A DNA stretch of 64,000 bases, from NCBI RefSeq assembly GCF_002237655.1, contig NZ_NOKT01000015.1, forward strand, positions 124,001-188,000. Direction: 5' to 3'. This document shows positions 6,409 through 19,792 of this stretch, one piece after another. Source of the stretch: Streptomyces sp. XY006 (GTDB lineage: Bacteria; Actinomycetota; Actinomycetes; Streptomycetales; Streptomycetaceae). The position numbers were made by a program, and so were the translations under genes. A model generated the notes under the pieces. That model was not told where the DNA came from, ran no database searches, and saw nothing but the letters and a program-made list of their open reading frames with translations. How positions within the stretch are numbered: the first letter of the stretch is position 1; every line of letters starts with the position of its first letter.

Positions 6409-7008
6409 ATGCCGCGTCATTCCCGGGGCCGCCGCCGGGACCCCCGTAAGACCCGACTGCTCGCTCTCGCGGGCGTCGGAGTGGCCTGCGCGGTCGCCCT
6501 GCCGCTGGCGGTGGCGGCAGCCGGGGCCGTGCGGTCCGAGGGGACCCCGAGCGGTACGTCCGCTTCCGGCGCGGACCACCTCGCGCGGCGTTCCTCCCCG
6601 CCCGACGGCAAGGCTCCCGGGGCGTCCGCCGCCGTCCCGCGCCCGCCAGGCTTGGGCTTGCCGGCCGCCGTGCGCTGCGGTCCCGAACTCTCCTCCCCCG
6701 ACGGCGTCGAGGCGCAGACCTGTGTGATGAGGCAGGGTGCGCGGACCTGGGCGCGGACCTACTACCGCAACGCCACCGGCGAGGCGCTGGACGCCGCGCT
6801 CACCCTGATGGGGCCCGAGGCGCGCACTGTGCGGATCACCTGTGCCGTGGGCGCCGAGGACGAGCCGGGCACCTGCGAGACGCCGCGGGAGCCCGCACGG
6901 GGCGAGCCGGCGGCGTACACGGCGGTCACGGAGTTCGCCCGGCGGGCCGGACAGGGGCCGCTGCTGCTGCGCTCGGGAAGCAACTCGCCCACGGAAACGG
7001 GCAGTTGA
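6409..7008 (+). CDS. Secreted or membrane-anchored protein of unknown function
   Basis: 199 residues. A basic start (MPRHSRGRRRDPRKTR) is followed by a hydrophobic segment LLALAGVGVACAVALPLAVA at about residues 17-38 that fits a signal peptide or anchor. An Ala/Pro/Ser-rich linker leads to a small domain with three Cys residues (VRCGPE, QTCVMRQG, ITCAVGAEDEPGTCETP). TYYRNATGEALDAALTLMGP looks like part of a beta-sandwich. I do not recognise the family. Predicted to act outside the membrane. Confidence 0.75.
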   Translation: MPRHSRGRRRDPRKTRLLALAGVGVACAVALPLAVAAAGAVRSEGTPSGTSASGADHLARRSSPPDGKAPGASAAVPRPPGLGLPAAVRCGPELSSPDGVEAQTCVMRQGARTWARTYYRNATGEALDAALTLMGPEARTVRITCAVGAEDEPGTCETPREPARGEPAAYTAVTEFARRAGQGPLLLRSGSNSPTETGS

Positions 7009-7035: not shown

Positions 7036-7112
7036 GGCCCATGAAAAGACCCGGTTGCTGGCGACGGGGGATGCACCAGCAACCGGGCTACAGGAACGGT
7101 AACAAGAGATCG
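7036..7112 (-). ncRNA. Candidate small structured RNA, hairpin family copy A
   Basis: On the minus strand a perfect 12-bp stem (7087-7076 with 7061-7050) closes the 14-nt loop TGCATCCCCCGTCG and is followed by a T-rich tail (TCTTTTC). About 15 nt upstream is CTTGTTACC. Copy B at 19715-19792 (+) has the same loop, the same upstream CTTGTTACC and TAGCCCG, and a stem differing at three adjacent positions on both sides (GTT/AAC against ACC/GGT), so pairing is kept. The element lies between convergent genes. It could be an intrinsic terminator, but the conserved loop and upstream block go beyond that. RNA status is inferred; I cannot match it securely to a known family. Confidence 0.45.
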
Positions 7113-7199
7113 GCGGTTCGCAAATTCGATCTCGCCCTTTCCAGTCACCGACTGGCTTGTCCGCGACGGGAGTTGTGATCCGTCGGGGGCGCGGGAGAC

Positions 7200-7225
7200 C
7201 GGCCGGCCGGTGCCCCGGCCGGCCG
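7200..7225 (-). terminator. Hairpin after SEC-C protein gene
   Basis: An 11-bp GC stem (7200-7210 with 7215-7225, 4-nt loop) lies 16 bp downstream of the stop of the minus-strand SEC-C gene. Typical T-less Streptomyces terminator. Confidence 0.6.
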
Positions 7226-7241
7226 TTGCGCGTGCCGGGTC

Positions 7242-8225
7242 TCAGCTCAGCGTGACCTGCCGGTTGGTGAGTCCGCCCCGGGCCCGGCGCTCGTCCGCCG
7301 TCAGCGGCGCGTCCGTGGCCAGGGCCGTCGCGAGGCGCTCGGCGAACTCCGCCGCCGGCTTCTCCACGTCCTCGGCCGAGACGCCGCTCGGCAGGTCCCA
7401 CACCGGCACCGTGAGCCCGTGAGCGCGGAAGGAGCCGACCAGGCGGGTGCCCTCGCCGAGGCTGGAACGGCCCGCGGCGTGCAGCCGCGCGAGAGCGTCC
7501 AGAAGCTGCTCCTCCGGGTGCGGCATGACCCAGCGCAGGTGGTTCTTCTCGGGCGTCTCGCACCAGTACGCGGCGTCCACGCCCTGGAGCTTGACGGTCG
7601 GGATGGCGGCGGCGTTGGCCCGCTCCAGGGAGGCGGCCACCTCCGGCGTGGCGTTCTCCGGGTCCGGGACCCAGAACTCGAAGCCGCTGTGCACTTCTGG
7701 CTCGAAGCCGCCCTCGGGATCGAGCAGGTCCTGCAGGCGCGGACCGTCGGCGGGGGCGCGGCGGCCCTGCACCGGCGTGCCCGGCTCCGCTTCCAGGGCG
7801 CGCAGCAGCGTGTCGGCGAGGTCGCGGCTGATGTCGCCCGAGGACGTGTCGTTCTGCAGGCCGAGCAGGACCGAGCCGTCGTCGCGGCGCAGGGCGGGCC
7901 AGGCCATCGGCAGGACCGTGGCCAGCGTGACCGCGGGGACGCCTTCGGGGAGGCCGTCCTTCAGGGGCAGCGCGACCGTGGCCGCCGGGACCAGCTCGCG
8001 CAGGGCCACCCAGTCGCACTCGCCGGGCAGGCCCTCGAAGGGGCGGCGCACCAGCTCGGTCACGGCGTGGGCGGCGGCGCGGCCGTGGCACGCCTTGTAG
8101 CGGCGGCCGCTGCCGCAGGGGCAGGGTTCGCGGGCGCCGACGACCGGAACGTCTCCCTCGGCGCCGACGGCGCCGCCCGTGGTCTGCGGGCGCTTGGCCT
8201 TCGTCTGGGGTCGCTTCTTGGCCAT
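7242..8225 (-). CDS. DUF5926 family protein with N-terminal SEC-C zinc motif
   Basis: 327 residues starting MAKKRPQTKAKRPQTT, a basic leader that may contact RNA or ribosomes. A SEC-C-like metal-binding motif PCPCGSGRRYKACHG is at residues 34-48; such motifs bind zinc and are found in SecA and in many small accessory proteins. The remainder (ALPLKDGLPEGVPAVTLATV, GFEFWVPDPENATPEVAAS) matches the actinobacterial DUF5926 family as I recall it; its function is unknown. Soluble, no membrane segment. It has its own terminator and is monocistronic. Confidence 0.85.
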   Translation of the reverse strand: MAKKRPQTKAKRPQTTGGAVGAEGDVPVVGAREPCPCGSGRRYKACHGRAAAHAVTELVRRPFEGLPGECDWVALRELVPAATVALPLKDGLPEGVPAVTLATVLPMAWPALRRDDGSVLLGLQNDTSSGDISRDLADTLLRALEAEPGTPVQGRRAPADGPRLQDLLDPEGGFEPEVHSGFEFWVPDPENATPEVAASLERANAAAIPTVKLQGVDAAYWCETPEKNHLRWVMPHPEEQLLDALARLHAAGRSSLGEGTRLVGSFRAHGLTVPVWDLPSGVSAEDVEKPAAEFAERLATALATDAPLTADERRARGGLTNRQVTLS

Positions 8226-14889: not shown

Positions 14890-14969
14890 TACCGCAGGTC
14901 AGCTGTATAGAGTGAGTTTTCCGGACCGGACGTCGGACGTCCCGGCGCGAGCAGTGAGGAGTGGAGACC

Positions 14970-17900
14970 TTGAGTTCCGACTCGGGGGCACGCACCGCCT
15001 TCGCGGAACGCCTCGCACTGCTGTACAAGGAAGCAGGCAACCCTCCACTCAAGCGCGTGTCCGAGTCGGTCGGGCGGCTGCAGCGGGTCGACGAACGCGG
15101 GCGGCCGGTGCGGGTGTCCGCCCAGCGGATCAGCGACTGGCGCCGGGCCCGGAACGTCCCCGCTCAGTTCACCGCCCTCGCGGCGGTGCTGCACGTGCTG
15201 ATACCCGAGGCGCGCCGGGCGCGGCCCACGCCGGTCTCCCCCGGCCTGTACGACCTGGCGCAGTGGCAGCGGCTGTGGGAGCGCGCGGTGGCCGACCCGG
15301 TCGGGGAGCGCCCCGCGGCGTCGGCGCCGGAGGAGGGGCCCGCCGCCGAGCCGCCTCCCGCGCCGGGCGGGGTGTGCCCGTACCGGGGGCTGGCCTCCTA
15401 CCGCCGGGAGGACGCCCGGTGGTTCTTCGGCCGGGAGCGCAGCACGCACGCGCTGGTCGGCCAGCTCCGGGCGGTGGGGGGCACGGGCGGTCTGGTCATG
15501 CTGGTGGGCGCGTCGGGGGCGGGGAAGTCCTCCCTGCTGAACGCCGGCCTGGTGCCCGCCCTGCGCGACGGCGCGCTGACCGGGGACGACGGCAGGGGAG
15601 GCAGGGGCGGCAGAGTCGGGGCCGCGCAGGTCGACGGCCGGCTCCACGAGGGCCCGCTCCCCGCCCCCCGGGCCGACTCGGAGGACCAGACGGACACCCC
15701 CGGCCCCGGCGGCCGGGGCGGTGACCATGGCCAGGGGGATCCGGGCAGGCCGGGCGGCAGCTCCGGGCAGGGGCAGGGTGACCAGGGCAGGCCGGGAGGC
15801 AGCTCCGGGCATGGCGGCACAGGTGGAGCCCGGGTCGACGGGGTCCGTCCGGCCGGGCACGTCGTACAGCTCGTGCCGGGGGCCGATCCCCTCGCGGAGC
15901 TGATCCGGCGCATACCGGACCTGGAGTCCGTCGTCCCGGCGAGGGCCGGGCGGGCCGCGGCCCAGCAGGAACGGACCCGCGCGCCGGCCGAACAGCAAGG
16001 GACCCGCGCCCCGGCCGGGCAGGAACGGGCCCGCGCCCCGGAGCAGCGCGAGACCCGCGCCCCGGCCGAGCACGAACAGCCCCGAGCCTCAGCCGAGCAG
16101 GAGCAGACCCGCTCCCCGGCCCAGCAGGAACAGGGCCGCGCCGAGGCCGGGCAGGAACGGGCCCGTGCCCCGGAGCAGCGCGAGACCCGCGCCCCGGCCG
16201 AGCACGAACAGCCCCGATCCTCAGCCAAGCAGGAACAGACCCGCGCCCCGGCCCAGCAGGAACAGAGCCGCGTCGAGGCCGGGCAGGAACGGGCCCGCGC
16301 CCCGGAGCAGCGAGAGACCCGCGCCCCGGCCGGGCAGCGAGAGGGCAGTGCCGCCGAGACGGGGGAGGCCCCCGCTTTCCTCCGCCCGGACGCCGTCCGC
16401 GCCGCCGTCGCCGCCTGGGCCCGGCGTGAGGCCCCCGCCGGTGGCCGGCCGGTCGTCATCGTCGACCAGTTCGAGGAGACGTTCACCCTCTGCCCGGACG
16501 AGGCGGAGCGGCGCACCTTCGTCGAGGTCCTGCACGCCGCCTGCACACCGGCCCGGCCCGGCGAACCGGCCCCGGCGGTCGTCGTCCTCGGCATACGCGC
16601 CGACTTCTACGAGCGCTGCCTGCGCTATCCCGAACTGGCCGACGCGCTCCAGCACCGCCACATGGTGCTCGGGCCGCTCACCGCCGCCGAGCTGCGCGAG
16701 GCGGTGACCGGACCGGCCAAGGCCGTCGGACTGGAACTGGAACCGGGCCTGGCGGAGCTCATCGTCCGCGAGGTCAGCGCCGACGGCCCGCGCGGGGCGC
16801 ACGACGCCGGCGTGCTGCCGCTGCTGTCGCACGCCCTGCTCGCCACCTGGCAGCGCAGGAAGGCGGGCCGGCTGACCCTGGCCGGCTACCGCGCGGCCGG
16901 CGGCATCCAGGGCGCGGTCGCGGCGACCGCCGAACGGGCCTGGTCCCGGCTCGACCCGGCGGCCCGCACGGCGGCGCGTCTGCTGCTGCTCCGGCTGGTC
17001 AGGCTGGGTGAGGACACCCAGGCCACCCGGCGGCGCGGCACCCGGCGGCAGCTCGCGAACGAGTCGAACGACCCCGGCAAGACCGAGGAGTCCCTCGAAG
17101 CGCTGGTCCGCGCCCGGCTGGTGACGCTCGACGCGGAGACCGTGGAGATCACACACGAGGCGCTGCTGCACGCCTGGCCGCGCCTGCGCGAGTGGATCGA
17201 CGAGGACCGGCAGGGCAACCTGCTGCGCCAGCGCCTGGAGGAGGACGGCCGGGCCTGGGAGGAGTCGGACCGCGACACCTCCCTGCTCTACCGGGGCTCG
17301 CGGCTGGAGCAGGCCGACACCTGGGCCCGATCGGCCGGGGACACGTTCCTGACCCGCAGCGCGGTGGAGTTCCTGGCCGCCTCGCTCCGGCTGCGCCGGC
17401 GCTTCCTGTGGATCACCCGTGGCGCGGTGGCGGCGCTGGTCGTGCTCGCGATGCTGGCCGTCGGGTCGGCGGTGATCGCGTTCAAGCAGCGCGACGACGC
17501 CGTGTTCGAGCAGGTGCTGGCCCAGGCCGACCGCGTCCAGGACACCGATCCCTCGCTCTCCGCGCAGCTCGACCTGGTCGCCCACCGGCTCCGGCCGGAC
17601 GACGAGGGCGCGAACAGCCGCCTGATGTCCATCGTGAACGCCCCGCTGGCCACTCCCCTCATCGGCCACACGGGGGCCGTCTACCTCACGACGTTCAGCC
17701 CGGACGGCAAGACCCTGGCCACGGCCAGCTACGACCGGACCGTCCGGCTGTGGGACGTGTCCGACCCCCGGCGCCCCGAGCCCCTGGGCGGTCCGCTGAC
17801 CGGCCACACGAGCTGGGTGAGCAGCGCGGTCTTCAGCCCGGACGGCAAGACCCTGGCCAGCGCCGCCGACGACGGCACGATCCGGCTCTGGGACGTCTCG

Positions 17901-19625
17901 GACCCGGGCCGTCCGAAGCGGCTGGGCAGGCCGCTGACCGGCCACGACGGCACGATCTACCTGATCGCCTTCAGCCCGGACGGCCGGTCCCTGGCCTCGG
18001 CCGGCGACGATCACACCGTGCGGCTGTGGGACGTGGCCGACCCGCACCGGCCGCGGGCGCGCGGAGAGCCGCTGACCGGGCACACGGCCGCGGCGCGCTC
18101 GGTGGCGTTCGCCCCGGACGGCCGGACCCTGGCGGCGGGCGGCGACGACGGCACGATCCGGCTGTGGGACGTGTCGGACGTGGACCGTCCGGAGCGGCTC
18201 GGCGCGCCGCTGACCGGCCACGGCGCCCTCGTGCACTCCGTGGCGTTCAGCCCGGACGGCAGGACGCTCGCCAGTGGCGGCGAGGACAACACCGTCCGCC
18301 TGTGGAACATGGCCGATTCTCGACGCCCGAAGCAGATCGGAGCGCCGCTCACCGGCCATACCGGCCCGATCTGGTCCGTGGCGTTCAGCCCCGACGGCAC
18401 GATGCTCGCCGCCGCCAGCGCGGACAGCACCGCGAGCCTGTGGAAGGTCAGCGATCCGGAGTACCCGTCGCAGGTCGGCGGGCCGCTGGCGGGCAGCAGC
18501 GGCGAGATGTACGCGCTCGGCTTCAGCCCCGACGGGCGCACGCTCGCCACCGGCACGGGTGACAACAAGGTCCGCCTGTGGGCGGTGCCGCGGTCGGACA
18601 TGACCGGCCGGACGGGTTCGTTCCGCTCCGACGGGCGGGTGCTCGCGACGGCGGGCCGGGACGGCCGGGTCCGGCTGTGGGACGTGCGCAGGCCCGGCGG
18701 GCCCGTACGGATCGGTGAACCGTTCCGGCCCGGCAAGGACGGCGTGCGCACGCTGGAGTTCTCCCCGGACGGCCGCACTGTCGCGGCCGTCACCGGCGAC
18801 CGGACCGTGCGGCTGTGGAACCTCAGCGATCCGGAGCACCCCGTTCCGTACCGCTCCTCCATCCCCCTGCGCATCCGGTACGCCGACCCGCTGGCCTTCA
18901 GCCCGGACGGACGCGTGCTGGCCACCGCCCACGACGACCGGACGATCCGGCTGTGGGACATCGCCGACCCGTCCCGGCCCCGGCCGCTCGGCGCGCCCCT
19001 CACCGGTCACAAGGGCTATGTGAACTTCCTGGTGTTCAGCCCCGACGGCCGTACGCTCGCCAGCGGCAGCGCGGACGGCACCATCCGGCTGTGGAACGCG
19101 GGCGACCCCGCCCGGATCACCCTGATCGGCACCCCGCTCAGGGGGCACCGGGGAGCCGTGAACGCCCTCGCCTACCGCGGCGACGGCCGGACGCTGGCCA
19201 GCGCCGGCGACGACAGCACCGTGCGGCTCTGGGACGTCGCGGATCCCGCCCGCGCCTCCGAGGAGAAGCGCCTCACCGGCCACACCGAAGCGGTCGTGTC
19301 CCTCACGTTCAGCCGCGACGGCCGCACCCTGGCCAGCGGCGGCAACGACAGCACCGTCCGGCTGTGGGACGTCGCCGACCCCTCCGGGGCCACCGCGATC
19401 GGCCAGTCGATGAGCCCCGGCGCCAAGACCGGCAACTTCCTGGCGTTCAGCCCCAGCAGCCATCTGCTCGGGGTGTCCAGCGGCGCCGACACCATCCGGA
19501 TCTGGGACCTGGACGTCGGCCGGGCGGTGGACCGCATCTGCTCGATGACCCGGGGCGTGCTCACGCCGGACACCTGGCGCGCCTATCTGTCCCGCCTCTC
19601 GTACGACCCGCCGTGCGACGGCTGA
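14970..19625 (+). CDS. HTH - nSTAND1 ATPase - membrane helix - 14x WD40 protein
   Basis: 1551-residue signal-transduction NTPase. Order: N-terminal HTH-like domain (about 1-85; RISDWRRARNVPAQF), Pro/Ala linker, nSTAND P-loop domain beginning CPYRGLASYRREDARWFFGR, Walker A GASGAGKSSLLNAG (~180), an insertion of about 300 residues with 44-residue repeats, Walker B VVIVDQFEE (~497), sensor and winged-helix parts (LPLLSHALLATWQRR), one membrane helix (VAALVVLAMLAVGSAVIAF, ~828-846), then 14 WD40 units (SPDGRTLAS...TVRLWD; two seven-bladed propellers) and a CDG end. STAND proteins switch by ATP-driven oligomerisation; bacterial relatives include phage sensors and developmental regulators. TTG 14970 has AGGAG at 8-nt spacing; a GTG at 14961 would overlap that Shine-Dalgarno. 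Role unknown. Confidence 0.92.
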   Translation: MSSDSGARTAFAERLALLYKEAGNPPLKRVSESVGRLQRVDERGRPVRVSAQRISDWRRARNVPAQFTALAAVLHVLIPEARRARPTPVSPGLYDLAQWQRLWERAVADPVGERPAASAPEEGPAAEPPPAPGGVCPYRGLASYRREDARWFFGRERSTHALVGQLRAVGGTGGLVMLVGASGAGKSSLLNAGLVPALRDGALTGDDGRGGRGGRVGAAQVDGRLHEGPLPAPRADSEDQTDTPGPGGRGGDHGQGDPGRPGGSSGQGQGDQGRPGGSSGHGGTGGARVDGVRPAGHVVQLVPGADPLAELIRRIPDLESVVPARAGRAAAQQERTRAPAEQQGTRAPAGQERARAPEQRETRAPAEHEQPRASAEQEQTRSPAQQEQGRAEAGQERARAPEQRETRAPAEHEQPRSSAKQEQTRAPAQQEQSRVEAGQERARAPEQRETRAPAGQREGSAAETGEAPAFLRPDAVRAAVAAWARREAPAGGRPVVIVDQFEETFTLCPDEAERRTFVEVLHAACTPARPGEPAPAVVVLGIRADFYERCLRYPELADALQHRHMVLGPLTAAELREAVTGPAKAVGLELEPGLAELIVREVSADGPRGAHDAGVLPLLSHALLATWQRRKAGRLTLAGYRAAGGIQGAVAATAERAWSRLDPAARTAARLLLLRLVRLGEDTQATRRRGTRRQLANESNDPGKTEESLEALVRARLVTLDAETVEITHEALLHAWPRLREWIDEDRQGNLLRQRLEEDGRAWEESDRDTSLLYRGSRLEQADTWARSAGDTFLTRSAVEFLAASLRLRRRFLWITRGAVAALVVLAMLAVGSAVIAFKQRDDAVFEQVLAQADRVQDTDPSLSAQLDLVAHRLRPDDEGANSRLMSIVNAPLATPLIGHTGAVYLTTFSPDGKTLATASYDRTVRLWDVSDPRRPEPLGGPLTGHTSWVSSAVFSPDGKTLASAADDGTIRLWDVSDPGRPKRLGRPLTGHDGTIYLIAFSPDGRSLASAGDDHTVRLWDVADPHRPRARGEPLTGHTAAARSVAFAPDGRTLAAGGDDGTIRLWDVSDVDRPERLGAPLTGHGALVHSVAFSPDGRTLASGGEDNTVRLWNMADSRRPKQIGAPLTGHTGPIWSVAFSPDGTMLAAASADSTASLWKVSDPEYPSQVGGPLAGSSGEMYALGFSPDGRTLATGTGDNKVRLWAVPRSDMTGRTGSFRSDGRVLATAGRDGRVRLWDVRRPGGPVRIGEPFRPGKDGVRTLEFSPDGRTVAAVTGDRTVRLWNLSDPEHPVPYRSSIPLRIRYADPLAFSPDGRVLATAHDDRTIRLWDIADPSRPRPLGAPLTGHKGYVNFLVFSPDGRTLASGSADGTIRLWNAGDPARITLIGTPLRGHRGAVNALAYRGDGRTLASAGDDSTVRLWDVADPARASEEKRLTGHTEAVVSLTFSRDGRTLASGGNDSTVRLWDVADPSGATAIGQSMSPGAKTGNFLAFSPSSHLLGVSSGADTIRIWDLDVGRAVDRICSMTRGVLTPDTWRAYLSRLSYDPPCDG
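16021..16350 (+). repeat. In-frame 132-bp tandem repeat inside the nSTAND gene
   Basis: Copies begin at 16021, 16153 and 16285 (the last partial). Each encodes 44 residues of the form QERARAPEQRETRAPAEH, EQPRxSAxQEQTRxPAQQEQ, xRxEAG. Shorter, related R-A-P-A-E-Q units fill 15950-16020. The repeated stretch lies between the Walker A and Walker B motifs. High charge and Gln content suggest a long helix or coiled coil. Confidence 0.92.
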
Positions 19626-19714: not shown

Positions 19715-19792
19715 AGTGGGCAAGCGCTTGTTACCCTTGGCCATAGCCCGACCGCTGGTGCATCCCCCGTCGCCAGCGGTCGGGCCTTTGCG
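19715..19792 (+). ncRNA. Candidate small structured RNA, hairpin family copy B
   Basis: The hairpin has a 13-bp stem (19746-19758 with 19773-19785), the 14-nt loop TGCATCCCCCGTCG and a short CCTTTG tail. CTTGTTACC begins at 19727 and TAGCCCG joins it to the stem. Loop, upstream block and overall length match copy A at 7036-7112 (minus strand), while three stem pairs differ in a compensatory way. It lies between convergent genes, 120 bp after the nSTAND stop and 8 bp from the GNAT stop, so a terminator role is the simplest reading. The conservation outside the stem suggests an RNA family or a dispersed element. Confidence 0.45.

Follow-up and report, generated by a model that had tools for sequence, protein, structure and literature searches.

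The window analysed here, a 64,000-nucleotide stretch of the Streptomyces sp. XY006 genome, holds two copies (A and B) of a short hairpin, both of which sit between convergent genes. About 150 nt upstream of copy A, and on the same strand, is a gene that encodes a DUF5926/SEC-C protein (7242..8225, minus; PF19348, E 1.2e-131). Downstream of copy A is a convergent open frame for a hypothetical protein (6409..7008, plus), whose product has no Pfam match and resembles a protein found in 99 of the 120 named loci. Just past the DUF5926 stop codon, a separate G+C-rich hairpin (7200..7225, minus), which shows as an 11-bp helix when 7185-7245 is folded, possibly forms that gene's own 3' end; it is weak against shuffled sequences (z -1.75, with 10/200 as good). 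Copy A is also two genes away from a Prim-Pol gene. According to the available portion of PMC6767563, the Prim-Pol gene is SCO3972 in S. coelicolor, which would place copy A near SCO3973/3974 in that species. Upstream of copy B, positions 14961-19625 hold the gene of a 1554-aa nSTAND1/WD40-repeat protein.

Read on the minus strand from 7112 to 7036, copy A has the order originally described, namely the block CTTGTTACC, a spacer, TAG, the stem, the loop TGCATCCCCCGTCG and TCTTTTC. The hairpin (7049..7088, minus), delimited by fold and covariation, has arms at 7088-7076 and 7061-7049 and a 14-nt loop at 7075-7062, and its 13-bp stem comprises 12 Watson-Crick pairs and a basal G.U. Since U.G and G-C pairs extend the closing of the loop, the open loop would span about 10 nt, CATCCCCCGT. 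The T-rich DNA after the stem, TCTTTTC (7043..7049, minus), is the presumed termination site of a small RNA, and its first T doubles as the stem end in the G.U pair. Copy B occupies the plus strand at 19728-19790 and is identical to copy A in both the CTTGTTACC block and the loop, as expected. Its hairpin (19746..19785, plus), recognized by sequence and fold, has arms at 19746-19758 and 19773-19785 and its loop at 19759-19772, and is followed by the tail CTTTG (19786..19790, plus). Three adjacent stem pairs differ between the two copies in both arms and their pairing is kept (G-C to A-U, U-A to C-G and U-A to C-G), in agreement with the original prediction.

Both sequences fold better than any of 200 shuffles (copy A, 77 nt, z -4.43; copy B, 76 nt, z -4.66), and the hairpin cores alone (45-46 nt) reach z values of -6.60 and -7.88, respectively, against 200 shuffles. 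The opposite strand of copy A folds too (z -3.36), so that the strand is not fixed by folding alone. Within the window, the 14-mer loop has two exact occurrences, and 13 sites lie within three mismatches of it, compared with 19.8 expected, which indicates no enrichment of looser copies. Across the 8.25-Mb genome, the exact 13-mer TGCATCCCCCGTC was found in two places, copies A and B, and its reversed control in none. At C19:95407-95430 (L344) of the source genome, a short stem carries a loop with the same 10 nt as the open loop of copy A, in a fold no better than shuffles (z -0.18).

Distribution of the hairpin

The exact loop is present in 149 of 150 genus genomes (the source genome included), with one to four copies in each, and the single genome without it is 82% complete. 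The reversed loop pattern gave 10 matches in total over the same 150 genomes. When 32 loop loci were read, two from the source genome and 30 from the genus, the stem was found in 29, the loci without it being L004, L006 and L007. To avoid selection on the loop, a loop-free search that combined the promoter block with the 5' arm of the stem was applied to 101 genomes; 46 of them matched, and the loop was identical in all 30 loci read.

The original prediction had proposed a covariance-model search of Streptomyces genomes; such a search found the family in the order and in the class. The model (R1) was built from 18 Streptomyces-type copies, and the tool itself describes its E-values as rough. 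The matches of R1 in the source genome were two strong copies (at 76.9 and 75.2 bits), a single weak relative at 30.1 bits and four matches at noise level (15.7-17.2 bits). At the level of the order, R1 matched 195 of 197 genomes at E<=0.1, and 194 of these have an E-value of 2.2e-10 or better; the best match in one genome of this sample (G157, E 0.09) had no loop on reading, nor did the weak matches in genus g6 (L233-L235). At the level of the class, 76 of 197 genomes matched at E<=0.01, and after nine weak matches were dropped (best E 3.9e-4 or worse), 67 strong genomes remained, 16 from the genus itself and 51 among the 181 outside it. The loop core was present in every one of the 20 out-of-genus genomes that were read from these 51. 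One locus (L314) was missed by the class search and recovered in a scan of DUF5926 flanks, so that 67 is probably a lower bound.

Among the genomes matched in the class are assemblies 1.0-1.5 Mb in size (G328, G372, G388, G403 and G415), but these are 60-93% complete; a 1.7-Mb, 100% complete genome of the same genus as G328 (G355) gave no match. The phylum search, with a model (R2) from an alignment (A3) that includes one reverse-strand duplicate of L011, matched 14 of 296 genomes, nine of them members of the genus. Five of the phylum matches lie outside the class and are weak: the loop is similar in L334 (GTCTCCCCCGTCAC), looser in L337 (TTCCCCCGG) and absent from the other three. The L334 loop, which belongs to a genome (G574) of another class of the phylum, sits on a different stem and may represent a distant relative or chance. 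The family's range and the constancy of its loop among the copies found are direct results of these searches. A mobile-element origin was also considered and set aside, with no match in plasmids (blastn) or in viral contigs (exact 18-mer). Extra hairpins with the loop CGCATCCCCCGTCG on a GGCCCCGC stem were seen at L236 and L249 in a genome (G298) from another genus of the same taxonomic family.

A covarying stem, an invariant loop and a fixed strand

The earlier claim that selection maintains an RNA structure, in which the stem covaries and the loop stays fixed, is now supported by 28 diverse copies instead of two. In the alignment of these copies (A4), made without the L011 duplicate and used for the final covariation counts, 97.1% of helix cells are paired, as against 81.5% in shuffles, and two-sided changes occur at 11 of 15 stem pairs. 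Two-sided cells number 71 compared with 20.3 ± 3.4 in shuffled alignments, and 0/500 shuffles reach 71; further pair types are less telling, with the observed value reached in 26/500. Slid partners, taken as a control on A4, pair at 29-50% only, and RNAalifold independently recovers the same helix. Among the 18 Streptomyces copies behind R1, four pairs change on both sides and further types stand at chance (429/500).

Within the loop, TCCCCCGTC is identical in 28/28 diverse copies, a count to be read with the caution that the alignments were fitted to a covariance model that favours the invariant loop. Loop variants are under-sampled, because the models were built from invariant-loop copies. 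The positions preceding TCCCCCGTC do vary, as two genomes (G478 and G487) carry TTTCCCCCGTC.

The strand was resolved by wobble pairs, counted over 45 rows (alignment A3 minus its duplicate). These rows contain 66 G.U pairs, 2 A.C and 18 other mismatches, and with the closing pair left out the ratio is 34 G.U to 2 A.C. The excess of G.U over A.C on the reported strand means that pairing has been kept as RNA on that strand; structure and strand are both shown by computation. The strong inverted repeat would also suit an element acting at the DNA level, as a cruciform or a single-stranded hairpin, an explanation that the asymmetry between strands, 66 G.U against 2 A.C, renders scarcely credible.

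Promoter, tail and the relation to the upstream gene

The original prediction took the conserved upstream block as part of the RNA. Its conservation in both copies stands, but the CTTGTTACC block is best read, from its sequence, as a promoter with the extended -10 element TGTTACCGT. In copy A this element lies at 7096..7104 (minus), and its hexamer TACCGT (7101-7096) begins 13 nt ahead of the stem base; in copy B the corresponding element, TGTTACCCT, lies at 19729..19737 (plus), with the hexamer at 19732-19737. Further upstream of copy A, GAATTTGCGA (7118..7127, minus) includes a -35-like TTGCGA (7123-7118), 16 nt before the -10 hexamer. Among 116 Streptomyces sequences, GAATTTGC in this -35-like region is conserved at >=90% and the next GA at 60-90%, in a stretch that was outside the search pattern. 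In the same 116 sequences, the footprint of copy A, averaged in tens, amounts to 1.0-2.0 bits per base from -60 to +39 around the loop start, with the proviso that positions within the search pattern are conserved through row selection; beyond these limits it falls to 0.14-0.76 bits upstream and <=0.32 bits downstream.

The placement of the hexamer holds across the wider family. The motif TAnnnT starts 12-16 nt before the stem base in 34/35 copies and in 15/16 families, compared with a background mean of 0.42/35 for each other upstream 5-nt window; the 12-16 nt window was picked after inspection of the data, and many of the 35 copies are close relatives, 10 of them from one family. An earlier set that included a copy at a contig end (L232) gave 35/35, which became 34/35 when L232 was taken out and L314 was added. 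The usual distance from the hexamer to the start is about 7 bases, so that this placement predicts transcription from the stem base. TANNNT is the -10 motif upstream of 80.4% of 3,570 mapped start sites of S. coelicolor in the available portion of PMC4895711. Downstream of the stem, the T fraction is 0.406 in the first 10 nt (35 copies), as against 0.14-0.21 further on. Scans with consensus promoters and terminators returned no site. Minus-strand positions 7106-7133 also contain an inverted repeat, GAGATCG...CGATCTC, that spans the -35-like region of copy A, is frequent in Streptomyces orthologues and is lost in some (L088 and L094); it is a possible candidate operator.

With the CTTGTTACC block read as a promoter, the predicted RNA would measure about 45 nt from the stem base, instead of the 70-100 nt proposed originally, and would be little more than its own terminator hairpin. 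Given the T-rich tail, the hairpin probably does serve as the RNA's own terminator. An insulator made of promoter and terminator, in which the short transcript has no function and the site blocks read-through between convergent genes, would accord with the location of copies A and B; it leaves the invariant 9-nt loop core unexplained and is very unlikely.

The relation to DUF5926 is central to another explanation, that the hairpin simply acts as an intrinsic terminator for the gene before it (DUF5926 in the case of copy A, WD40 in that of copy B), its loop being kept by inheritance. A G+C-rich stem followed by T-rich DNA is what such a terminator would look like. Moreover, 115 of the 120 named loci have DUF5926 next to the hairpin, and in all 115 of these Streptomyces-type loci the hairpin lies downstream of the gene on the same strand; the other five hold different neighbours of copy A, Prim-Pol among them. 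Farther away the arrangement loosens: DUF5926 is present in 15 of 20 distant loci (52-64% protein identity), and in these 15 the hairpin shares the strand of the gene in 11 and is opposite to it in four. The class sample divides into 51 genomes with both hairpin and DUF5926, 16 with the hairpin only, 63 with DUF5926 only and 67 with neither, an association with a Fisher p of 2e-4 that is not corrected for descent. The 16 strong-match genomes that show no DUF5926, some of them incomplete assemblies, are a further difficulty for the terminator explanation. The opposite-strand loci and the class counts together indicate that the site is old and that the RNA is neither merely a terminator of DUF5926 nor strictly tied to that gene. 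In class genomes without a strong match, the hairpin was found at 1/20 DUF5926 flanks, which means that many lineages have no hairpin there.

Other evidence points the same way. In 34 of the 35 copies the stem is preceded by a -10 hexamer, the loop core stays constant where 11 of the 15 stem pairs covary, and the loop is identical in all 30 loci found without using it, with TCCCCCGTC unchanged in the 28 model-found copies; in addition, DUF5926 may own the weakly folding hairpin past its stop codon. A mere gene terminator is accordingly improbable, and the earlier assertion that the hairpin is more than that has held.

Known C-rich-loop RNAs and the possible action of the loop

A check against Rfam, including 6C RNA, had also been proposed; when run, neither copy matched a family at gathering score. 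At E<=5, copy A returned a single partial match to NLPC-P60 RNA (RF03033), whose 16.7 bits are well short of the 53.7 required at gathering; copy B returned no family, and 14 related loci gave nothing except a tRNA and a chance match. 6C RNA (RF01066) resembles the present family in being actinobacterial and in having C-rich hairpin loops. It consists, however, of two stem-loops with at least six C each, according to the accessible part of PMC8388888, whereas copies A and B are one hairpin with five C, UCCCCCGU. The source genome has its 6C match elsewhere, in a gene of its own at C5:184607-184683 (45.9 bits, just short of the gathering score of 47), and the copies lie on C6. Identity with 6C RNA was therefore rejected on the basis of the Rfam result, the single hairpin and the separate locus. 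The same portion of that article cites Mai et al. (2019) for the binding of mRNAs by M. tuberculosis 6C RNA via its C-rich loops.

Among Streptomyces RNAs, the available part of Moody et al. (2013, PMC3765725) describes scr5583/sar2652/svr5279 and scr1434/sar6912/svr1031 as expressed, conserved small RNAs with C-rich loops. The names scr5583 and scr1434 follow their right-hand neighbours SCO5583 and SCO1434, whereas copy A would lie near SCO3973/3974. Copy B or the two-hairpin RNA described below may be one of these C-rich-loop RNAs, and the locus of copy A may be listed among the small RNAs of that work, judging from the sections at hand. A third RNA, svr5535, has 41 nt and a single predicted stem-loop like that of the present family, but the text available describes it as specific to S. 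venezuelae. The names scr3972-3974, SCO3973 and SCO3974 were absent from the main texts of the literature searched, and a search of the accessible literature for the loop as letters gave unrelated papers only. The name DUF5926 turned up in one paper.

Staphylococcal C-rich-loop RNAs include RNAIII, which PMC3765725 mentions, and the Rsa family. The staphylococcal RNAs have the C-rich loop on a hairpin and are presumed to meet G-rich sites; they are longer and belong to another phylum. In M. tuberculosis, MTS2975 lies between Rv3843c and Rv3844 according to the part of PMC3207917 at hand; it was considered as a counterpart and set aside, no sequence link having been made. With the nearest candidates compared by description, the one-hairpin form and the class-wide range mark a new family of the C-rich-loop kind of small RNA, and conservation on this scale suggests a regulatory RNA absent from Rfam.

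The loop core recurs in other contexts. The weak third match in the source genome, at C22:26617-26737 (L185, L353), is a distinct two-hairpin RNA with C-rich loops and a T-rich tail, to which 22 of the 61 genus genomes show DNA similarity, partly over the hairpin alone and in some genomes in several copies. Its second hairpin consists of GGCCCTGGCTGG or a variant, NNT, CCCCCGT and the complement, with the loop core TCCCCCGT, and a T precedes CCCCCGT in 20/20 loci read. Its stem and tail loosely resemble those of copy A, so that a common, perhaps paralogous, origin is possible. Individual loci (L010, L014, L022 and L023) also showed the same loop with other stems. Two of these, L010 and L022, carry it near position 1500 on the stem GCCCGCCCGGTG with a common upstream block of their own, and their neighbouring gene resembles a cytochrome P450 by eye.

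The presence of the loop on one-hairpin, two-hairpin and other stems suggests that UCCCCCGU is itself the selected module. It can be tentatively proposed, as a possibility that we would not yet lean on, that UCCCCCGU is a recognition module shared by actinobacterial small RNAs with one common partner, either an RNA site or a protein, and that the class-wide form is its minimal version, a promoter with its own terminator hairpin. A related proposal is that the loop is the site of a conserved actinobacterial RNA-binding protein, for which the RNA would act as a decoy or cofactor and not as an antisense molecule. Few antisense seeds are as constant as this loop, which has a core identical in 28/28 copies where pairing with changing targets would need less constancy, and the same core occurs on a distinct hairpin RNA; a protein site is for these reasons a serious rival. 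It lacks a candidate protein, DUF5926 being present in 51/67 strong-match genomes and in 63/130 others, and on balance we consider it unlikely.

The interpretation that we favour, with rather more confidence than doubt, is that copies A and B belong to an old actinobacterial family of free-standing hairpin RNAs of about 45 nt, with a loop that likely pairs in trans. Although the position of the TAnnnT motif is itself a computed result, we infer the independent transcript, its termination and its pairing. RNA polymerase would start at the stem base from the TAnnnT (-10) promoter and transcribe one hairpin with a G-C closed loop of 9-10 nt, YWUCCCCCGU; transcription would end at the U-rich tail and release the short RNA. 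The invariant UCCCCCGU, exposed on a very stable stem, would then pair with G-rich segments in other RNAs. The likeliest action, by analogy, is pairing in trans via the loop; 6C RNA, reported to bind mRNAs through its C-rich loops, offers a precedent.

Small RNAs conserved over much of the class of Streptomyces seem to be few, and G+C-rich bacteria of this kind are not known to have Hfq. Since the loop is invariant and the form simple, whatever function emerges in Streptomyces could hold widely, and the hairpin RNA offers a minimal model for how C-rich loops work in G+C-rich bacteria.

The original prediction suggested that the loop could pair with G-rich ribosome-binding sites. When sites complementary to the loop were sought, long complements were in no case conserved among the loci read, and 8-mer complements near DUF5926, in 30 loci and the window, were scattered and formed no conserved site, in a scan whose filter let three hairpins through. 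A full 14-nt complement of the loop was observed in one genome at L004:591-612, immediately before the start codon of a gene whose product resembles a secreted protein, at one of the three loci where the loop has no stem.
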